Source: Hyphomonas oceanitis SCH89 (GTDB lineage Bacteria > Pseudomonadota > Alphaproteobacteria > Caulobacterales > Hyphomonadaceae). From it: a DNA stretch of 64,000 nt. The notes beneath the pieces were generated by a model. That model was not told the DNA's origin. It worked only from the letters and a program-made list of their open reading frames with translations, and did no database searches. A program made the position numbers and the translations under genes. Position 1 is the first letter of the stretch. Every line of letters begins with the position of its first letter. This document shows positions 44,089 to 54,027 of the stretch, in pieces. The DNA is taken from NCBI RefSeq assembly GCF_000685295.1, contig NZ_ARYL01000002.1:186001-250000 (forward strand). The letters are read 5' to 3'.

Positions 44089-44484
44089 ATGGCGAAAGTG
44101 ATTGGCCTGGGAGGGCTGTTCTTTCTTTGCAGGGACGCGGAGGCGACGCGGGCCTGGTATGCAAGGGTGCTGGGCATCAAGATCGAGGAGTTTGGTGGCA
44201 GCATGTTCAGCCATGCCGCGTCGGCCAGCATGTTTCCGCGCGGTGCGCAGACCGTGTGGTCGCCTTTCAAGGGCGACAGCGACTATTTCAAGCCATCAGA
44301 CAGCGACTTCATGATGAACCTGATGGTCGACGACATGCCGGGCATGATTGCTCGCCTTGAGGCGGAGGGCGTGGAAATGGAGGGCGAGCCACTGAACGAG
44401 CCCTATGGCCACTTTGCTTGGATCATGGATCCTGACGGTCGCAAGGTGGAGCTGTGGCAGCCGGTCGAGCCGCCGGCTGAGTGA
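44089..44484 (+). CDS. VOC (glyoxalase/bleomycin resistance) family protein
   Basis: The product has 131 residues from the ATG at 44089, preceded by CAGGAGG eleven bases upstream. A single VOC domain is present: GLGGLFFLCRDAEATRAWYA, VLGIKIEEFGG, FMMNLMVDDMPGMIARLEAEG and the C-terminal metal-type strand GRKVELWQP, where the glutamate is a typical metal ligand. It could be a lyase, epoxide-handling or stress protein; the VOC superfamily is too broad to assign. It is divergent from the haloalkane dehalogenase and may share its regulation. Confidence 0.88.
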   Translation: MAKVIGLGGLFFLCRDAEATRAWYARVLGIKIEEFGGSMFSHAASASMFPRGAQTVWSPFKGDSDYFKPSDSDFMMNLMVDDMPGMIARLEAEGVEMEGEPLNEPYGHFAWIMDPDGRKVELWQPVEPPAE

Positions 44485-44490
44485 CGCGCA

Positions 44491-44527
44491 TAAAAAGCGG
44501 CCGCCGCGGTTATCCCGTGGCGGCCCG
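44491..44527 (-). terminator. intrinsic terminator of the CC_3452-like gene
   Basis: CGGCCGCCGCGG-TTAT-CCCGTGGCGGCCC forms a long GC stem. On the minus strand it is followed by CTTTTTAT, placing it about 30 bases after the stop at 44555. It may also receive transcription from the VOC gene. Confidence 0.78.
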
Positions 44528-44554
44528 AGGGGAGATTGTCGAAAGTATGAGAGC

Positions 44555-44851
44555 TTAGCTTTTGGCCGAAGCTTTGCAGGCTTCGATTTCGTCAGCTGTC
44601 AGTTCGGAATTTTCGTTGCGCAGGGCCGTAACGACGCCAACTTCTTTGGCGATCTTCTTGCAGATGCGAACAGAGGCTTTCTTGCGGTCGAGGTCGCCGA
44701 CGCAGGTCGTGCCTTCGCATGTCCAGACAACGCTCTCGGCGATGACATGCTTTTCAGCGACAGGCTTTGCCGTTTCGAAAACGAAGTTTGCGGCGAAAGC
44801 GGGAGCGGTAAGCGCCATAGCGGCGGCGCCGAGAATTGCAGAACGGAGCAT
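44555..44851 (-). CDS. CC_3452-like small exported protein
   Basis: The product has 98 residues with a clear signal peptide (MLRSAILGAAAMALTAPAFAAN). The mature part has ESVVWTCEGTTCVGDLDRKKASVRICKKIAKEVG, containing four cysteines in all (two in CEGTTC, one in RICKK and one in EACKA near the end), probably two disulfides. The pattern matches a small alphaproteobacterial family known from Caulobacter (CC_3452 type), with no known function. The start at 44851 is fixed by the signal peptide; a longer frame to 44938 is not supported. Confidence 0.85.
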   Translation of the reverse strand: MLRSAILGAAAMALTAPAFAANFVFETAKPVAEKHVIAESVVWTCEGTTCVGDLDRKKASVRICKKIAKEVGVVTALRNENSELTADEIEACKASAKS

Positions 44852-45098
44852 GGGAGGGTGCCTTTGTTCGGGGTTATGATGTGTGCGTGCAACGCGGTGG
44901 ACAAAGGGAGTCTTCCCCTTCGGCGCAATGACTATCAAACGCTGAATAATTCGTCAAGCATTCAGCGGGCAGAATTTTTGCGGTATCCCGGGGAAGTTAA
45001 TTGGTGAACAGGTTGCCCCTACGACATAAATTGCTCCTGCCCCCGCGTGGGTTAGAGTGACCTAAAGAATAAGGCCGTGCGCCAGGGAGAGAGATGTA

Positions 45099-46439
45099 AT
45101 GGACTTCAGTATTCCGCAGGATATCGCCGACTATCTGGTCGTTCTCGATCAGTTTATCGAAGACAAGATCAAGCCGCTGGAGCAGAAGGACGACAATATC
45201 CGTTTCTTCGACCATCGCCGCGAATGGGCCCGCACGGATTTCGAGAATCAAGGACTGCCCCGCAAGGAATGGGAAGCGCTACTCGGCGAGGCGAGACGCC
45301 TTGCTGATGAGGCGGGACACCTGCGCTACGGCCTACCCAAGGAATATGGTGGCCAGAACGGGTCGAACCTCGCAATGGCGATCATCCGTGAACATCTCGC
45401 CCGTAAGGGACTTGGCCTGCACAATGACCTGCAGAACGAGCACTCCATTGTCGGCAACATGCCGCAGATCCTGATGCTGCGCGACTTTGCCCGCGAAGAC
45501 CAGAAACACCTCGCGACGGCGGCGCTTGAGGGCAAGTTCCGCGCGACCTTCGGTCTGACCGAACCACACCACGGTTCCGATGCGACGCATATGGAAACCC
45601 GGGCCGTAGGCCATAAGAAAGACGGCAAGGATGGCTGGCTGATCAATGGCGAGAAAATGTGGATCACCGGCATGCACCATGCCAGCCACATGATGTGCTT
45701 TGCCCGCACCAGCGGCGAGGATGGCGATGCGCGCGGCATTACCTGCCTGCTCGTGCCGGCAGATGATCCGGGCATCGAGATCCTTGAGTACATGTGGACA
45801 TTCAACATGCCCACTGATCACCCCCGCCTGACCATCAAGGATGTGTGGGTGCCCGAGAGCGCGGTATTTGGCCCGCCGGAAGGTGGACTGGCGCTGGCCC
45901 AGCATTTCGTGCACGAGAACCGTATCCGTCAGGCCGCAAGCTCGGTCGGAGCAGCGATGTTCTGCATTGATGCATCCATCGACTATGCCAATACGCGCGC
46001 GCCGTTCGGCAAGAAACTGTCGACCAATCAGGCCATCCAGTTCCCGATTGTCGAACTGATGTCGGAAGCCGAGATGCTGCGTCTGCTGATCTTCAAGACG
46101 GCGTGGGAAATGGACCAGATGTCCAAGCCGGAGGTCGCGATCAAGCTGTCGGACAAGGTGTCGATGTGCAACTACCGGGCAAACCGGCTCTGCTGCAACG
46201 CGGCCGACCGCGCAATGCAGATCCATGGCGGCATGGGCTATTCGCGCCACACGCCGTTCGAGCACATCTATCGCCACCACCGCCGCTACCGCATCACCGA
46301 GGGCTCTGAAGAGATTCAGATGCGCAAGGTCGCCGGCCACATCTTCGGCTTCATGGGCGCGCAGAAGCATGGCCAGCCGAAGGGCGAAAAAGACGCCAAG
46401 GGCAAGAGCACCGAACCGACGGATTTTGCCGTCAGGTAA
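45099..46439 (+). CDS. acyl-CoA dehydrogenase family protein
   Basis: The product has 446 residues. This FAD-dependent enzyme does the first step of beta-oxidation or a related desaturation. Family blocks are FGLTEPHHGSDATHMETRA (substrate/FAD region), GWLINGEKMWITGMHHA, RIRQAASSVGAAMF, YANTRAPFGKKLSTNQAIQF, IHGGMGYSRHTPFEHIYR and the C-terminal EGSEEIQMRK. The N-terminal part (DYLVVLDQFIEDKIKPLEQ) is longer than in short-chain dehydrogenases and resembles ACAD10/11-type enzymes. A purine-rich GGGAGAGAGA precedes the ATG. Not linked to thiolase. Confidence 0.94.
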   Translation: MDFSIPQDIADYLVVLDQFIEDKIKPLEQKDDNIRFFDHRREWARTDFENQGLPRKEWEALLGEARRLADEAGHLRYGLPKEYGGQNGSNLAMAIIREHLARKGLGLHNDLQNEHSIVGNMPQILMLRDFAREDQKHLATAALEGKFRATFGLTEPHHGSDATHMETRAVGHKKDGKDGWLINGEKMWITGMHHASHMMCFARTSGEDGDARGITCLLVPADDPGIEILEYMWTFNMPTDHPRLTIKDVWVPESAVFGPPEGGLALAQHFVHENRIRQAASSVGAAMFCIDASIDYANTRAPFGKKLSTNQAIQFPIVELMSEAEMLRLLIFKTAWEMDQMSKPEVAIKLSDKVSMCNYRANRLCCNAADRAMQIHGGMGYSRHTPFEHIYRHHRRYRITEGSEEIQMRKVAGHIFGFMGAQKHGQPKGEKDAKGKSTEPTDFAVR

Positions 46440-46492
46440 CACCGTAGTATGATCCCGCGCAGCCCTCTGGCTTGTGCGGGATCCTACAAACC

Positions 46493-46954
46493 ATGTTCAA
46501 ACGGCTTAAGCAGACTGCGCTTGTACTGGCGGTGTTTTTCGGTGCGATGATAATTGCCGGGGTTCTGGTCGACGCGGTTCTCCCAAGGCACTGGCAACCC
46601 GTGCAGGCAATTGTCCAGACGGTAAACATCGCGTCTGTCCGGAAGGGTACGCCCGGATGGGCCATTCAGGCGGATGCGCGTTATGAATTTGATGGCCGTG
46701 TTTAACAAACGCGGCGCGATGTGTTTGTCAATGCTGACAGGGACGTTGCCCTGGATGCGCTGGATGATTGGCCGGCCGGTCGTGAATTCACGCTCTACAT
46801 CAATATGGACGCGCCGGGGTCTGTGTCGCTTTACCCGGACGGTGGGCGGGGTGGTATGGTGGCAGCTGCCGTCGTACTGGCACCTGCCCTGGTCATCGTG
46901 ATTGGCTTCATTGTCTTCCTCATCCGTCGCAGGCGCAAAGCGGTCAGTACCTGA
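46493..46954 (+). pseudogene. DUF3592-like membrane protein gene with in-frame TAA (copy A)
   Basis: Two halves lie in one frame, separated by TAA at 46703-46705. The first (ATG 46493, MFKRLKQTALVLAVFFGAMI) has one helix and YEFDGRV; the second continues QTRRDVFVNADRDVALDALD, then FTLYINMDAPGSVSLYPDGG, and ends with a second helix (ALVIVIGFIVFLIRRRRK). Together they show the helix-domain-helix shape of DUF3592-type proteins (about 150 residues). The stop falls where a tyrosine is plausible (TAC or TAT to TAA). A decayed relative with its own TAA lies at 49029-49178. Confidence 0.8.
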
Positions 46955-47055
46955 GGGGGCGCCTTCCTTCCCGGAACGCTCTCTGGTTAATCCGGCGGTA
47001 ACCCTAAAAAGGTAAATGGTTCAGTTGATTTTATTAATTGACTGGAGGCACGGCC

Positions 47056-47320
47056 ATGCCCCTGCTGGAACGGGTAATCCGGGCGCGCATCACCATATTG
47101 CGGTCAATGCGCTGGACCTGATCGAGAGCTTTCCACACCGTCCAGACCGAGGAAGAGAGCGCCATTCATCGCGCCGTGGAATGGAGCATCGCCAAGTCGC
47201 AGGACGAGATTGCCTTCCGGATCGAGAGACTCGGCTGTCCCGATTTGCCAGCTGGCGTAGGCTTTGAGTCTGACATGGTACGTGCCAGGGCCGAGCGTTC
47301 GCATCTGCGGGGCTTCTAGA
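47056..47320 (+). pseudogene. truncated copy of the phospholipase-like gene at 49278 (copy A)
   Basis: From the ATG at 47056 the DNA follows the start of the intact gene at 49278 (GCTGGAACGGGTAATCCGGG against GCTGGAACGAGTTATCCGGG). It shows a small gap after CCGGGCGC, and a jump of about 265 bases at GAGAGCTTTCCACAC that removes the core of the domain. It resumes with the counterpart of TGGAATGGAGCATCGCCAAG and ends near 47320, just before the fic stop. Its 70-base leader (ending GGCGGTAACCCTAAAAAGG) also matches the leader of the intact gene. Confidence 0.85.
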
Positions 47321-47341
47321 TTTTCTCGAGGACCGAAGTGC

Positions 47342-48550
47342 TCAGGTTTCGGGATAGAGGCGCGGAAAGAGTAATTCGAGCGCATCGGTGGGGAAGCGGA
47401 GAGACACTGGCCCCTTCGGGGTGTCCGAAGCAAGCAAACCGGCGTTAACGACATCGCCAAGGACGCGCCGTGCCGTGCGCTCTGGCAGGCCGGTGATGCG
47501 AGGCGCAGTGCCTCTCTCAAATTCACCGCGGATGAGTGCCTCCTCGAGTAGGAAGGCCGCTTCCGGTTTCAGTGTCTCGGAGCGCTCGACCAGGCGCCTC
47601 AGGCGTCCTGAGAGGTTGTCGAGATCAAATAGCTCTGCCATGAACTTGATCTGGTCGAGACAAACCTTGAGGAACCATGCCGTGTACTCCGTTAGTGCCC
47701 TGAGAGACAGATTGCCTCTTCCGTCGAGATCTCCTTGTCTTGGGTTGTCGGCATAATCCATCATTCGCTTGTAGTCGGTGCGGCTTTCGAGGCCGCGCGC
47801 CAGTCCGCGGGAAATCGACCAGAGTCCATGGGCTCCTATTTCTGCTTTCGCGGCCATGGCGTGACTCATGAGACGACTGACCCGGCCGTTCCCGTCAGGG
47901 AAGGGGTGGATATAGTTGAAGCGATGGTGAGCGGTTGCCATGGAAAGAATGCGTGCGGCCTGACCCATTCGTCCGAAAGCAAAGCGGTTTTCGAAATAGG
48001 CCATGAAGTCCGCTACGCGTTCGCTCGAAGGTGGTATGTGGCGTCCAACCGAAACATCATGTGCCTTTTGGCACCGCCATTCACCCGGTGTAATCATGAA
48101 TTCGACACTGTCGCTCTTGATACGCAGCATCTCTTTCGGCGCATCATTATAGAACTCACGGTGCAGCTTTTGAATGAAGGTTCTGGACGCCGGTTCAGGC
48201 AGCTCTCCGATCGACGCCAATCGGTCAACTTCCACTTGGACGCGCACATGAGCGGCCGCTTCGATCTGAAGGTTTCTCCGTCCTTCGTTTTCGTCGAAAT
48301 CGCCGGCCAGCGCGCGTTCGATATCACGTGGCCGTGTGTCGTGTCCCTCGATGAGGTTGCTATAATAGGTGTTCATCAGACGGACGAGTGAAGCTAGATT
48401 GGCTGCCGTTTGAGGGTGAAGCTTCGTTCCCAATATAGCTGATTTGGCCGCAATTTCGGCGACGATATCCGCAATGGCCTCTGGGGCTTCCTCAAGCCTG
48501 GCGGGTTCGATGCGGCTTGGTGTTTCAAGGAGGTGGTTGGCCGAAGTCAA
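47342..48550 (-). CDS. Fic family protein (class II, with C-terminal winged-helix domain)
   Basis: The product has 402 residues. The Fic active site is [12 protein letters not shown] at residues 215-226, with the catalytic H215 and the complete HPFx(D/E)GNGRxxR form expected for AMP transfer. An N-terminal inhibitory helix is seen as [11 protein letters not shown] (S64-E68-G69), the [S/T]xxxE[G/N] motif of class II Fic proteins, so activity is self-inhibited. The last 60 residues ([18 protein letters not shown]) look like a winged HTH, suggesting DNA binding. The frame opens at a TTG (48550); no in-frame ATG exists before residue 59. It sits between two copies of a duplicated module. No separate antitoxin is visible. 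Confidence 0.87.
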
Positions 48551-48601
48551 AGTGGAGAAAACCTATAAAAAATAGCCAGCTGTGCGGGCCGTACGGGGAT
48601 G

Positions 48602-48735
48602 TTGGCCGATGCCGTTGCCGATCTTAGCTTGAATTGGCGCGGCTGCGCAATGGCCGATAGTGTAATCTTTTAGAGCTTTATTTTTACTGTAAATATAAAA
48701 CTAAAATTATAAATTTGGCCGATGTTTTGGCCGAT
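48602..48735. promoter_or_regulatory. repeated TTGGCCGAT element upstream of fic (possible operator)
   Basis: The nonamer TTGGCCGAT occurs at 48602-48610, 48715-48723 and 48727-48735; variants are TTGCCGAT at 48615-48622 and ATGGCCGAT at 48650-48658, and TTGGCCGAA at 48537-48545 is inside the start of fic. Two pairs are spaced 12 bases end to end (48610/48622 and 48723/48735), about one helical turn, with AT-rich DNA between. This would suit a regulator such as the Fic winged-helix domain, but no binding is shown. Confidence 0.5.
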
Positions 48736-49028
48736 CGTTCGCGGTCGTCCGCTCCGATCTCTTCTTTCACCAGTGCTCAATCCGATCTGGTCAGGGGCAC
48801 AGGAGTGAGGTCCGGAGGTCCTAATGTGGCAGGACGGATTTACTGTTGAAGCAATCTATTTTCAGTCGCGTCTGCAGTCTGGGTCAGAGGAAAAAATAAT
48901 CGAGAAAAACAGCAAGTCAAATTGACGTCGCTGTGCAAGAAAGCCGGAATTGGAAGCAATATCCATGAAAAAAGTCTTGACTCGCCTATTTTCATTGCGC
49001 CGACCATGCGATGGACAATTGGTCTACA

Positions 49029-49178
49029 AGCTGGACATTCGCACTTTAAGTTAACACGGACGCACCCGCCCCTGCGTCGCTTGTCGTGTCGTCTGCTGGC
49101 CTCACGCCAGCGCTCGGAAGCGTGGTCGGCTTTATCCTGTTTCTCATACGGAGTCGGCGCGCGGGCGAGCGCACCTGA
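49029..49178 (+). pseudogene. remnant of a DUF3592-like gene (copy B)
   Basis: In one frame the DNA reads STSWTFAL, TAA at 49047-49049, then VNTDAPAPASLVVSSAGLTP followed by ALGSVVGFILFLIRSRRAGER and a TGA at 49176. This aligns with the C-terminal part of the gene at 46493 (FTLYINMDAPGSVSLY and VIVIGFIVFLIRRRRK). The TAA replaces the tyrosine of FTLY. The front of the gene is gone. It precedes the intact phospholipase-like gene exactly as the 46493 gene precedes the truncated one. Confidence 0.75.
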
Positions 49179-49277
49179 TTCAGGGGTTTCTTCAGAGGAT
49201 CGCTTTCCGGTTAATTCGGCGGTAACCCTAAAAGGTAAATCGTTCGGCAGATTTCATTAACTGCTGGAGGACGCGAC

Positions 49278-50921
49278 ATGTCCCTGCTGGAACGAGTTAT
49301 CCGGGCGCACCGCTGTACGTCGACACATCACCATATTGCGTTCAATGCGCTGGACTTGATGGAGGGCGATGAGGCCGAGCGCTGGAAATCGCTGTTCCTT
49401 GTGCATCACGAGCACTTGCTGAAGGGCGCCAAGGCGCCGGACACGACCTTCAAGGATTTCCGCAATCACGTCCTGCACATTTCCGAGGGGGAATGGGGCG
49501 GTGCGCGGGACAAGGCGACCGAATGGTATGCCAAGGCGGTTGACCTGCTGGCGCGCAAGAAGTGGAGCGAGGCCGCTTATGCGCTGGGCGTGCTGAGCCA
49601 TTATTATGCGGACCCGCTGCAGCCCTTCCACACGGGCCAGACCGAGGAAGAAGGCGCCATCCATCGCGCCGTGGAGTGGAGCATCGCCAAGTCTCAGGCC
49701 GAGATCGCGTTTCGGATCGATACGCTTGGGTACCCTGAGATAGAAGTGCCGGATGGCGTTGGCTTTGTGTCCGACATGGTGCGGGCCGGGGCCGAGCGCT
49801 CGCATCCGCACTACCACACGTTCATCGACCACTATGACCTCGATGTTGGCGTGAAGGATCCACCGGCTGGCCTCGACGAAACCATGCTGGAAATCGTGGC
49901 TGACCTTGTGGCCTATGCGACGGCAGGCATGGCCGTGCTCATGTCGCGGGCGATCGCAGAGGCGGCTGTGGCGCCGCCGAAGGTGAACCTCACCATTCAA
50001 GGCTATATCGAGACGCTGGATATTCCGCTGCGCATAATCTCCAAGAAGCTGGCGGATGCAGGCGACCGCCGCCAGGTCGAGCGCATGTATGCCGAGTTCC
50101 AGAAGACCGGGAAAGTGGTCAAGACCTTGCCGGACGATGACAAGGCCATCCGCAAGCTGCATGCGAAACAGGTGTTGCGCGTACCACTGAAACAGCTCGA
50201 CGCACAGGAACTCGCGCCTCTGGGTAGCGCGGTGAAGAAGGCGCCTGTCGCAGCCCCGAAAGCCGAAGTTCCGGCGCCGAAACCTGTTGCCAAGCAAGAA
50301 CCAAAGCCGGCCCCCGCGCCTGCCGCGAAAGTGGAGCCCAAGTCCACGCCAAAACCGAGCCCTGCGCCCGTCGCGAAGGTGGAGCCGAAGCCGGCGCCCA
50401 AACCGGAAGCCCCCAAACCCCTGCTGGCACCAGAGCCTGTGCCGCAACCTGTCGCGGAGGCTGCACCTGAGCCTGCAAATGCTCCGGAGATCGGCGGACG
50501 GGGGCGCCTGACGCGGGAGTCCTCTGTCGTGGATGCCCCTTCTATTGGTCGGAAAACGGCCAAGCGTCTCGGCCGGGCTGGTATTACTACGGTCGCCGAC
50601 CTGATGGACTGCGATCCGGATGAAACCGCCGGTCTGCTCAATGTGCATCACATTGATGCTGAGACGCTGATCGACTGGCAGGACCAGACACGCCTGATGA
50701 TGGATGTGCCTGGATTGCGTGTGCATGACGCGCAAATCCTTGTGGGGGCAGGTATCCGCAGCGCGGGCGAGCTGGCAGCGGCCTCGGCGCGCGATGTGTT
50801 CCTCGCGTCCATGGACTTCCTGACATCGCCTCAGGGCGAGCGCGTCCTCTGGGAAGATGCCAATTTCGAGGAAGATGAAGTCGAAGGCTGGATCAGCATG
50901 GCGCAGGCCAGCGCCGCCTGA
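49278..50921 (+). CDS. zinc-phospholipase-C-like protein fused to a DUF4332 helix-hairpin-helix domain (intact copy B)
   Basis: The product has 547 residues. Residues 1-300 are all-helical and carry several conserved histidines (CTSTHHHIAFNALDL, FRNHVLHISEGEW, LGVLSHYYADPLQPFHTGQT), a pattern of Zn-dependent phospholipase C/S1-P1-type folds. An Ala/Pro/Lys linker follows at about 315-395 (APKPVAKQEPKPAPAPAAK). Residues 410-547 look like a DUF4332 helix-hairpin-helix region (SIGRKTAKRLGRAGITTVAD, DVPGLRVHDAQILVGAGIRS), which is usually nucleic-acid- or protein-binding. The ribosome-binding site is CTGGAGGA at 49263-49270. It has no signal peptide, so it is probably cytosolic, which is odd for a phospholipase. 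Confidence 0.82.
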   Translation: MSLLERVIRAHRCTSTHHHIAFNALDLMEGDEAERWKSLFLVHHEHLLKGAKAPDTTFKDFRNHVLHISEGEWGGARDKATEWYAKAVDLLARKKWSEAAYALGVLSHYYADPLQPFHTGQTEEEGAIHRAVEWSIAKSQAEIAFRIDTLGYPEIEVPDGVGFVSDMVRAGAERSHPHYHTFIDHYDLDVGVKDPPAGLDETMLEIVADLVAYATAGMAVLMSRAIAEAAVAPPKVNLTIQGYIETLDIPLRIISKKLADAGDRRQVERMYAEFQKTGKVVKTLPDDDKAIRKLHAKQVLRVPLKQLDAQELAPLGSAVKKAPVAAPKAEVPAPKPVAKQEPKPAPAPAAKVEPKSTPKPSPAPVAKVEPKPAPKPEAPKPLLAPEPVPQPVAEAAPEPANAPEIGGRGRLTRESSVVDAPSIGRKTAKRLGRAGITTVADLMDCDPDETAGLLNVHHIDAETLIDWQDQTRLMMDVPGLRVHDAQILVGAGIRSAGELAAASARDVFLASMDFLTSPQGERVLWEDANFEEDEVEGWISMAQASAA

Positions 50922-51902
50922 TCACAGGCCGCGCGGCCTGAGCCCGGCGGCGCGATAGATCGCGTCGATGGCCGCCATGTTGCCGATGGCATCCGCGCCG
51001 CCTGTGAGGGGAACGGCGCCGCCTTCCAGCACGTCCACGACATGGGCAAGTTGGTGGTCGTAAGTTGACTGTCCATCCACTGTGAAAGTCTCTGTGTTGC
51101 CTTTTATTGTGGCCGTGATGCTGTGGCCGCGATGCGGGTGGATCGGATTGATGATCTCGAGGCGGCCGTCTGATCCCTCGACCCTGATCCACGCATCAAA
51201 GGGCGTGTCGGGGGCCATGCTGGTATGGATTGATGCCGTTTCGCCGCCGGGGAAGGCGAATTCAGCGACCGTTCTCAGGTCGACCCCCGGATGATCGCAG
51301 TGGGCTGTTGCGGAGACCACGGTTGGTTCCGCGCCGATCAGGGCACGCACCGCGTGAAGCGGGTAGCAGCCGAGATCCATAAGCGCCCCGCCGCCGACGG
51401 CCAGCGTGTGGCGCAGCTCACCGGGACGGTACGGGATTGTGACGTCAAAGGCGGCCTCGATACGGCGGACAGTGCCGAGCTCTCCGCCGCACACAATATC
51501 CAGCACCCGCTGGAAGGCTGGGTGGAAGCGATAATGGAAGGCTTCGATGAGGGGCTTCCCGGTGCGGTTCGAGGCCTCGACCATGCGGACGGCTTCGCCC
51601 GCATTCATGGCGAAGGGCTTCTCGCAGAGAACGGCCTTGCCAGCCTCAAGCGAAGCGATGGTGAGGTCGGCATGTCGGTGCGGGGGCAGGGCATTATAGA
51701 TGAGGTCAATATCGTCGCGCGCGAGGAGGGCTTCATAGGAGTCAGCCACATGCGCGATGCCGTGTTCGTCTGCATAGGCTTGCGCGCGGTCTGCGTCCCT
51801 GGCCGCCACGGCGACCACTTCGCAATCGGTACGAGCGCTGGCCGGTTGGAGGACTGCTTTGGGTGCAATTTTCGCTGCGCCGAGAATGCCGATCCTGATC
51901 AT
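50922..51902 (-). CDS. Gfo/Idh/MocA family oxidoreductase
   Basis: The product has 326 residues. An N-terminal Rossmann fold (IRIGILGAAKIAPKAV) is followed by the EKP signature (AVLCEKPFAMNAGEAV) whose lysine is catalytic in the family. The second domain is the beta-sheet substrate domain (FHYRFHPAFQRVLDIV, GGALMDLGCYPLHAVRALIG with the histidine). The C-terminal part contains GGADAIGNMAAIDAIYRAAG. The overall match is to dimeric dihydrodiol dehydrogenase/glucose-fructose-type enzymes; the substrate is not determinable. Its stop codon directly abuts that of the convergent gene ending at 50921. Confidence 0.92.
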   Translation of the reverse strand: MIRIGILGAAKIAPKAVLQPASARTDCEVVAVAARDADRAQAYADEHGIAHVADSYEALLARDDIDLIYNALPPHRHADLTIASLEAGKAVLCEKPFAMNAGEAVRMVEASNRTGKPLIEAFHYRFHPAFQRVLDIVCGGELGTVRRIEAAFDVTIPYRPGELRHTLAVGGGALMDLGCYPLHAVRALIGAEPTVVSATAHCDHPGVDLRTVAEFAFPGGETASIHTSMAPDTPFDAWIRVEGSDGRLEIINPIHPHRGHSITATIKGNTETFTVDGQSTYDHQLAHVVDVLEGGAVPLTGGADAIGNMAAIDAIYRAAGLRPRGL

Positions 51903-52107
51903 GTGACGTGCCTTGTTTTCATGAGACCTTCATCGGCCCTGTGGACAGGGCGTAAACAAAAACGACCTGGCTGTTTACTCCGTCCTAACAGCGCTTAACG
52001 GACTCTGGCAAATGAGTTGGAAAGTGCGGGGTCGCGGTAAGGAAGCGGAAAGCATGTGGGAGGTTAATGGGGGTTCCGGAGCCATTAATCCTAGGAGTGC
52101 TACGCTA

Positions 52108-52530
52108 ATGCTGAATGTTCTCATTGCGCACATCGCTACAATCAATGGACTCTCGGAACCTACCGCAACTAAGGCGCTGGGGATTGTATTGAATTCAGCT
52201 GAGCGACAGGCTTCCCCCTTCGCACCGGCGATGTTCAAGGCCATCCCCGGCGCTCGTGCGCTCGCCGCCCGTACCGGGTCGGAGTTCGGCGCAGCCACGG
52301 GAATCATTGCTCGCATGATTGAGCAGACGCCCGGCGGCAAACGCGTTGTCGCGCAGACCATGATCGGTTCGCTTCACAAGATCGGTCTGGACCACAAGGC
52401 CATCGGCCACCTCCTGCCATCGATCTCGACCTTCATGGAAGAGCATTACGAGATGACCGGTTTCGGGCATCTGGGCGACCTGATCGGCCATGATCTGGAT
52501 GCGGAAATCAAGGCAGCGAAAGCGGCCTGA
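52108..52530 (+). CDS. helical hypothetical protein
   Basis: The product has 140 residues from the ATG at 52108 (AGGAG at 52093-52097); the earlier in-frame start at 52012 adds unlikely low-conservation sequence. It is all-helical: MLNVLIAHIATINGLSEPTA, VLNSAERQASPFAPAMFKA, IIARMIEQTPGGKRVVAQTM and HLLPSISTFMEEHYEMTGFG. The double LGDLIG and IGHLLP segments hint at a repeated helix hairpin. No signal or membrane helix. It is followed by a strong terminator and I assign no family. Confidence 0.75.
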   Translation: MLNVLIAHIATINGLSEPTATKALGIVLNSAERQASPFAPAMFKAIPGARALAARTGSEFGAATGIIARMIEQTPGGKRVVAQTMIGSLHKIGLDHKAIGHLLPSISTFMEEHYEMTGFGHLGDLIGHDLDAEIKAAKAA

Positions 52531-52561
52531 ATACTGCAGTTTTCACAGACTCTTCCAAACA

Positions 52562-52590
52562 AGGCCGCCCCCAACAGGGCGGCTTTTTTG
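52562..52590 (+). terminator. intrinsic terminator
   Basis: GCCGCCC-CCAACA-GGGCGGC followed by TTTTTT forms a textbook terminator 32 bases after the stop of the gene at 52108. Confidence 0.92.
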
Positions 52591-52783
52591 ATGCGGAATG
52601 ATCTGCTGCGCGACGACCAGCGTATAGGATACAGGCTGCGATGACCGATTGTTGGCCCCTCCTATGCTCGGTCGATCGCGCCTGAAGAGCCAGTCCGCTC
52701 ACCCTTTCCGGGCGGATCTGGCTCTTTTCATTGGGGCGATGTGTCGTTACAGCGTGACCAGCCCTGCTGAACGAGGAACAGAC

Positions 52784-53059
52784 ATGCGAACACTGAACGG
52801 ACTGCGCGCGGACGAGCGCTTTGCGCTGGACCTGATGGCTGCAATCCGCGCCGATGCCGAGACAGTGTGTTCGCCAGATGCCGTCGAACTCGTTTCGGTG
52901 ACCATTGATGTAACAGGTGCCGATGTCGTCGGGGAGCCCGCATTCAAGGCGCGCGTTGATCGCAAGACACGCACCGTGCTGTTCACAGGCGGCTCGGCTT
53001 CGTGCGGCGACACGGTCGTGATGACGGCAACGGCTGTTTACCGGATTGTTTCGGCCTAG
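52784..53059 (+). CDS. small protein with possible hotdog-like domain
   Basis: The product has 91 residues from the ATG at 52784 (GAACGAGGAACAGAC upstream). The first third is helical (RADERFALDLMAAIRADAET), the rest a beta-sheet with DAVELVSVTIDVTGADVVGE and KTRTVLFTGGSASCGDTVVM, then TATAVYRIV. The pattern of an alternating sheet after a helix, with the closing VMTATAVYRIV strand, resembles hotdog thioesterase fragments such as PaaI-type proteins, but it is much shorter than an enzyme. The assignment is tentative. The next gene on the minus strand is a crotonase, ending 3 bases away. Confidence 0.65.
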   Translation: MRTLNGLRADERFALDLMAAIRADAETVCSPDAVELVSVTIDVTGADVVGEPAFKARVDRKTRTVLFTGGSASCGDTVVMTATAVYRIVSA

Positions 53060-53061
53060 GC

Positions 53062-53907
53062 CTACATCGGCGTATCGCGCAGCTTCAGCAGGTCCGGATA
53101 GTCAGGATCGCGCTTCTCAGCCCGGGCGGCGAAGGCTTCCTGCATGTGCGAGGGGGGCAGCATGGCGGCGTTCCAGACACCGATATAATCCAGCGTATCG
53201 GCCGTGTTGTGGTCGCGGGCATAGTTGATCAGCGTCTTGCAGCCTGTGACCGTAAGCGGGTCTTTCGACGCGATTTCCCTGGCTGTTGCGAGCGCGTGGG
53301 CAACGCAGGCTTCGTGCGTCTCGAAGACATCATTGACCAGGCCGATATCCTTGGCCGTAGCGGAATCGATGCGGCGGCCCGTATAGGCCATTTCCTTGAC
53401 CCAGCCTTCGGGGATGTAGCGTTGCAGGCGCGGGAAGGTGCCGACATCTGCCGTCATGGCGATGTTGGTTTCCATGATGGTGAAGAAGGCATCCTTCGTG
53501 CACCAGCGAATGTCGCCGGCGGAGATCATGTCGATGGCGCCGCCGATGACGCCGCCATGGAGGGCGAAGAGAACGGGAACGCGTGCCTCTTCCAGCACGT
53601 TGAAGCTGGACTGGATCTGGCGAATATTGGAGCGGAAAGCCTCAGCCGCGACATAGCGATCAACCTTGCCGCCGCCTTCACCTGACCCGAATACGGCGAG
53701 GTCCATTCCAGCGGAGAAATGCTTGCCTGTCGACGAAATGACAATGCAGCGGGCGCGCACATTCATGTCGATATCGCGAATGATGGCAGGCAATTCGTTC
53801 CAGAACGCCTTGTTCATCGTGTTCATCGCCTCGGGGCGGCTCATCTGGATATGCGCGACCTTATCCTCGATCGTGACGGTGAAGGCTTCATAGGTTTTCT
53901 GCAGCAT
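53062..53907 (-). CDS. enoyl-CoA hydratase/isomerase family protein
   Basis: The product has 281 residues. The crotonase fold is clear from AHIQMSRPEAMNTMNKAFW, the oxyanion region SSTGKHFSAGMDLAVFG, FALHGGVIGGAIDMISAGDI and CTKDAFFTIMETNIAMTADV. The residue expected as the first catalytic glutamate lies in the ETNIAM segment, and the second acidic residue lies near ADVGTFPRLQRYI, so dienoyl-CoA isomerase or hydratase are both possible; the ECH1-like pattern fits an isomerase. It is the last housekeeping-type gene before the conjugation operon. Confidence 0.88.
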   Translation of the reverse strand: MLQKTYEAFTVTIEDKVAHIQMSRPEAMNTMNKAFWNELPAIIRDIDMNVRARCIVISSTGKHFSAGMDLAVFGSGEGGGKVDRYVAAEAFRSNIRQIQSSFNVLEEARVPVLFALHGGVIGGAIDMISAGDIRWCTKDAFFTIMETNIAMTADVGTFPRLQRYIPEGWVKEMAYTGRRIDSATAKDIGLVNDVFETHEACVAHALATAREIASKDPLTVTGCKTLINYARDHNTADTLDYIGVWNAAMLPPSHMQEAFAARAEKRDPDYPDLLKLRDTPM

Positions 53908-54027
53908 GGGGCATCTCCGCGATTACACGGGAGACTATCACGCAGCAGGCGCAAAGCCAGAGGTGACGTCAGGGGAAGGGTTTGTCTCGCACCGGTTGCG
54001 CATGCTTGCCGCTCATGTAGCACGGCC

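Follow-up and report, generated by a model that had tools for sequence, protein, structure and literature searches.

The stretch of Hyphomonas oceanitis SCH89 DNA analysed here, 64,000 nucleotides long and referred to as the window (G000, contig C2, positions 186001-250000; parent assembly 4.28 Mb), contains a fic gene that is placed between two partial versions of the same pair of genes. An acyl-CoA dehydrogenase (ACAD) gene (45099-46439, plus strand; PF00441/PF02770) forms the native left flank, based on 99% protein identity and matching gene order in the relative G004. It is followed on the same strand by a left unit (L), consisting of a DUF3592 gene with one stop codon (46493-46954), a leader (46955-47055) and the first third of a phospholipase-like (PLC) gene (47056-47309, about the first 178 codons). 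The right unit (R), also on the plus strand, comprises the last part of a DUF3592 gene (48951-49178, from about codon 68 to the stop, with a broken frame), a second leader (49179-49277) and a whole PLC gene of 547 amino acids (49278-50921), which has the domains Zn_dep_PLPC (PF00882) and DUF4332 (PF14229). The fic gene (47342-48550, 402 amino acids, TTG start) lies between L and R on the opposite strand. Together with its upstream region it makes up a fic unit (47337-48743, minus strand), delimited by DNA identity as the part common to fic loci with other neighbours. To its left and right are 27 bases (47310-47336) and 207 bases (48744-48950), respectively, that matched nothing in the fetched loci of other genomes; when 48744-49280 was searched against the genus, relatives matched only beyond 49150 (the leader, or 23 bases in G015).

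The duplication around fic, as it had been proposed in a preliminary description of this DNA, is real. A repeat search revealed direct repeats in register at 47007-47040/49230-49263 (82%), 47042-47086/49264-49308 (82%), 47088-47129/49326-49367 (90%), 47131-47243/49626-49738 (83%) and 47246-47308/49747-49809 (84%), and gapped alignments of L against R gave E = 3e-42 and 1e-37. The L DUF3592 frame is nearly whole, as previously described, its sole stop being a TAA at codon 71 (46703-46705); it retains 84% protein identity to the intact G004 gene, and 43 of the 70 base differences between the two fall at third positions. The L copy of the PLC gene is truncated, as had been noted, and has additionally lost 16, about 258 and 6 internal bases. 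Its homology stops at 47309, leaving about 32 bases to the fic stop (47342), which is close but not within the 25 bases given earlier. The R DUF3592 remnant was recovered independently at 48951-49163 (39% identity, E 5e-6, three stops; DNA alignment at 49006-49178) and extends further left than position 49029, where its start had been placed. The later damage in L, that is one stop in DUF3592 and three deletions in PLC, is real decay. The unit before fic breaks off within PLC (3' truncation) and the unit after it begins within DUF3592 (5' truncation); the insert is flanked by direct repeats, with the truncations expected from a single-crossover insertion-duplication. The name DUF3592 holds narrowly, the G004 protein reaching a marginal 26.0 bits against PF12158 (cut-off 25.3). 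Relatives of the gene were found in 3 of 105 family genomes (G000, G004 and G011), each time between ACAD and PLC. With L stopped at codon 71 and R a remnant, both DUF3592 copies of the H. oceanitis genome are damaged; the frame is open in G004 and G011.

We compared the locus with that of 41 other genomes of the genus (36 + 5). The nearest of the relatives searched, G004 (94% identity over the PLC protein), has a plain single-copy ACAD-DUF3592-PLC order and matches the outer parts of the window locus on both sides, with 89% identity over 44089-47129 and 87.5% over 49197-53942. It thereby provides an uninterrupted single-copy locus with orthologous outer parts, the fic-free counterpart that the preliminary description had suggested looking for among relatives. 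All 41 genomes had a PLC match, with one N-terminal match each and a second one in none, the matches in G010 and G029 being cut by contig ends and some of the genomes being incomplete. A tblastn search (E up to 1e-5) detected fic at none of the 41 fetched PLC loci, a few of which are short, and a fic-free intermediate with two units was likewise not present among these genomes. Because the relatives carry one N-terminal PLC match and no fic at the locus, the ancestral state was likely one unit without fic. ACAD lies upstream of PLC in 40 of the 41 genomes (none was found on the short contig of G001). The gap between the two genes measures 106-120 bases in 17 genomes and 617-4328 bases in 22, and is uncertain in G098, in which ACAD was only partly matched. 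Judged from these gaps, the ACAD-PLC junction is a frequent site of gene uptake and looks like a small gene-exchange spot. Wide gaps occur for example in G007, G013, G017, G019, G020 and G022 (L036-L038, L042, L051 and L053); frames inside them were listed for 19 of the 22 relatives, and their content varies from group to group, with some frames resembling what we take to be tryptophanase and cytochrome P450.

The window Fic protein belongs to the Fic/Fido family, scoring 49.9 bits against PF02661 (curated cut-off 24; E 6e-13). Like SoFic of Shewanella (PDB 3eqx and 3zcn), which it matches weakly (E 3e-5), it has a Fic domain with the motif HPFx[D/E]GN[G/K]R, here HPFPDGNGR; the general form of the motif is given in PMC2686095. 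Unlike in SoFic, the match is limited to the Fic core, and the protein reached 27.7 bits against the SoFic equivalog NF046030, far below the cut-off of 550. The title of PDB entry 3eqx describes a Fic-domain transcriptional regulator. As a guess, the window protein may carry a C-terminal DNA-binding domain. Counting G000 itself, 11 of the 105 family genomes contained DNA relatives of fic. The fic unit shows 84% DNA identity to Hyphomonas sp. BRH_c22 (L099, NZ_LADU01000017, 40,704 bases) over 47337-48743 and 85% to Henriciella aquimarina over 47339-48695, in each case with neighbours other than those in the window. The contig G014:C89 of the same genus gave BLAST matches to the window identical to those of L099; the fic of G014 is 91% identical to the one in the window, yet its ACAD-PLC junction is plain. 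In Henriciella aquimarina, whose Fic protein shares 90% identity with that of the window, AbiEi/AbiEii are located some 3.5 kb from fic, and an IS66 transposase some 4 kb from it. Together with its absence from the PLC loci of the genus, these comparisons of gene neighbourhoods indicate that fic is a newcomer at this locus, as had been suggested before, and that it moves between genera. A literature search returned no papers linking Hyphomonas with Fic.

Upstream of fic, we noticed direct repeats of TCGGCC, four of them in the window (48604-48734, minus strand), all in the sense of fic and including one pair 12 bases apart. In a sample consisting of the window and 19 of the 20 fetched fic loci (L117 was left out), 15 of 20 loci (the window, L099-L108, L111, L113, L114 and L118) had two or more copies in the 300 bases preceding the fic match, whereas the repeats were absent from the other 5; a pair exactly 12 bases apart was present in 13. 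The orientation relative to fic was sense in 55 cases and antisense in 1. The observed count was reached in at most 1% of background windows for 9 of the 15 loci and in 3 to 11% for the other 6. The repeats are perhaps a candidate operator, possibly of the Fic protein itself, which is a guess; a literature search on Fic proteins as transcriptional regulators and on direct repeats in their promoters returned no papers. An inverted repeat (CCTTTAATAAG ... CTTATTAAAGG) is located about 250-290 bases upstream of fic in L099 and, imperfectly, in L100, at the place where the similarity to the window fades; it is absent from the window.

Several routes by which fic could have arrived were considered and rejected. 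Arms of at least 20 bases joining both edges of the insert were absent (an arm at 47306-47328 pairs at 74% with 45650-45672 in ACAD), and no transposase was seen in the insert, in which fic, the longest frame, was the one searched against families. Both findings agree with the preliminary description and speak against transposition. Carriage of fic by a phage was dismissed after a scan of viral contigs, in which three stretches matched the peptide pattern and none encoded a fic relative, so that no free form was obtained there. Fic relatives are present on 341 of 72,556 plasmid records, the best at 71%; 136 records matched the insert DNA and none covered 80% of it, which argues against a plasmid origin of the entire insert, and among the eight matches listed only fic was covered. 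Neither a donor nor a circular form of the insert was found among the viral contigs and plasmid records.

We then asked which parts of L and R resemble the single-copy locus of G004. Because the leader and the very end of the first L PLC stretch are wrongly placed in the multi-row alignment, sites were counted after realignment. In the DUF3592 tail, where the alignment is doubtful (53 gap columns), 41 sites united L with G004, 11 united R with G004 and 9 united L with R. The corresponding numbers were 22, 3 and 3 in the leader (22 versus 3, p 1.6e-4), 3, 5 and 0 at the PLC start, and 2, 25 and 7 in PLC 47131-47309 (2 versus 25, p 5.7e-6). Hence, the outer parts of both units are G004-like and the inner parts are not, and both site patterns switch at the PLC start. 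The leader upstream of the dead PLC copy is about 90% like that of G004 (89/99 identical), while it is the intact PLC gene whose leader deviates, with 70/98 positions identical to G004 and 70/98 to the L leader.

Trees of the PLC gene were built on the multi-row alignment, from which doubtful bases had been dropped in all but the largest tree. The latter held 37 rows, that is both window copies and 35 of the 41 genomes (G010 and G096-G100 were not included), and joined R with G004 (100/90), then L (98/81) and then G028 (98/93). Forcing L to group with R was 5.62 log units worse, with an AU p of 0.0565 that is not below 0.05, and forcing L to group with G028 was 2.07 log units worse (p 0.175). 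On a data set of 14 rows and 230 columns, the sister grouping of L and R was 4.89 log units worse. Under a null in which L and R are sisters, fitted separately for two codon classes, this difference was reached in 0 of 150 and subsequently in 1 of 2000 simulations; the position of L outside the grouping of R and G004 was tested after earlier counts had suggested it. Reading 47130-47309 by eye, we found seven sites at which L agrees with G028 and R with G004, versus one at which L agrees with R and G004 with G028. The L PLC piece therefore diverged before the split from G004, and L and R are not sisters in the PLC tree. For the leader, a four-species test with G011 as outgroup did not tell the three topologies apart, the pairing of L with R being slightly best, and the topologies of the DUF3592 tail were likewise not told apart.

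The changes private to the L PLC piece are spread evenly over codon positions (8/8/9), while 18 of the 19 changes private to R, G004 and G028 are at third positions. On the L branch, change at codon positions 1+2 amounted to 0.082-0.091 (60 bootstrap replicates, range about 0.044-0.14), compared with a 4-fold rate per branch of 0.214 since the split from G004 (303 of 928 sites in five genes, with 0.21 to 0.43 of sites differing per gene). Since this is about 0.4 of the 4-fold rate, the L PLC piece seems to have lost constraint only after the split, though it diverged before. Such a pattern suits a fragment that was functional elsewhere; the rival reading is an old paralogue that stayed functional. 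Over third positions (58 to 76 sites), the L branch comes out shorter than the R/G004 path, which makes for a poor clock. Third positions had initially led us to regard the R leader and the L PLC piece as diverged beyond the neutral level; we withdrew this on 4-fold sites, by which the change in both (22/98 and 25/179, respectively) does not exceed neutral decay since the split. In the R DUF3592 tail, change was above neutral (41/145, p 0.003) in a doubtful alignment.

Based on these findings, we propose, with a probability of roughly 0.55, that the locus is a natural insertion-duplication scar of one DNA integration. The incoming DNA would have been a circle, or a molecule behaving like one, carrying the fic unit and an internal DUF3592-leader-PLC fragment of about 0.8 kb. 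This fragment, whose source was probably a near relative, would have spanned the region between codon 68 or so of DUF3592 and codon 178 or so of PLC. One crossover with the resident single-copy locus near the PLC start would have split this fragment, so that its 5' part of PLC became the truncated L copy and its 3' part of DUF3592 with the leader became the front of R. The resident DUF3592 would have remained on the left, and the resident PLC would have been rejoined behind the incoming leader; afterwards, the L PLC presumably lost its internal bases and the L DUF3592 gained its stop. The truncations facing fic are then the two ends of one internal fragment, so that one event takes the place of three. 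The case is built on 230-253 PLC columns, the layout and the deviant leader of the intact gene, and it favours a fragment from a near relative rather than a local duplication. A fuller version, in which a circle from a sister species combined fic, the upstream repeats and a target fragment as homology arm, entered by one natural crossover, remains perhaps reversible as an insertion-duplication and left a foreign leader driving PLC, is conceivable but less likely than not.

Other histories have to be weighed against this single integration. A transfer by two crossovers from a donor already bearing the scar would be expected to look the same. It is also conceivable, although rather unlikely, that L and R are old paralogues: the duplication would have preceded the split from G004, both copies would have functioned for long, fic and the truncations would have come later in the H. 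oceanitis lineage, and G004 would have returned to one copy, keeping the L DUF3592 and leader and the R PLC through recombination between the repeats. This history predicts the same three-way mosaic and the same tree, and recombination between direct repeats routinely restores one copy; however, it demands additional events (a duplication, a long period of double function, an insertion that truncated the two copies, and in G004 a separate and exact loss), and a second N-terminal PLC match is missing from all 41 relatives, some with incomplete genomes.

Slightly less probable still is a recent local event after the split from G004, from a fragment of the own genome or by tandem duplication, with the inner pieces differing by decay only. 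The amounts of change measured against 4-fold sites fit neutral decay since the split, the L changes are pseudogene-like in their even spread, and the leader alone does not reject this history. What counts against it is that, with the L and R PLC simulated as sisters, one of 2000 simulations reached the observed difference, with the AU p of 0.0565 given above, and that a deviant leader on the intact gene beside a G004-like leader on the dead copy is the reverse of what decay predicts. The preliminary description had favoured a tandem duplication, insertion of fic between or into the copies and complementary loss, a path consistent with damage on the fic side of both copies. We consider it improbable, because it takes at least three events, has no two-unit intermediate among the 41 genomes and lets both losses end close to the insert; the truncations are explained by one split fragment, and the L PLC is not the sister of R.

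Campbell-type or insertion-duplication integration leaves two copies in direct orientation, one before the insert that is cut at its 3' end and one after it that is cut at its 5' end. The truncation pattern and orientation of the locus are like those produced by laboratory plasmids carrying an internal gene fragment; unlike these, the window locus is natural, old and decayed, and no vector or circular form was seen. Campbell-type integration was described to yield a tandem duplication whose distal copy is non-functional (PMC2924362). Related cases are homology-facilitated illegitimate recombination and the T6SS immunity-gene arrays of Vibrio cholerae, which share with the window a foreign module anchored by a homologous stretch, with remnants of old genes beside it (PMC5361080). 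One end is non-homologous there and the old effector is displaced (PMC5361080), whereas in the window the insert separates two parts of one homologous fragment and the two switches are found within a single stretch. The mechanism is textbook knowledge; the example, most likely a natural scar of this kind, is new. Accessory genes often appear without an integrase or transposase, and how they entered then has to be guessed. A scar in which incoming and resident DNA are told apart by their history would show the entry of a lone gene via ordinary homologous recombination, and it cautions that an apparent duplication with complementary loss may be a single event.
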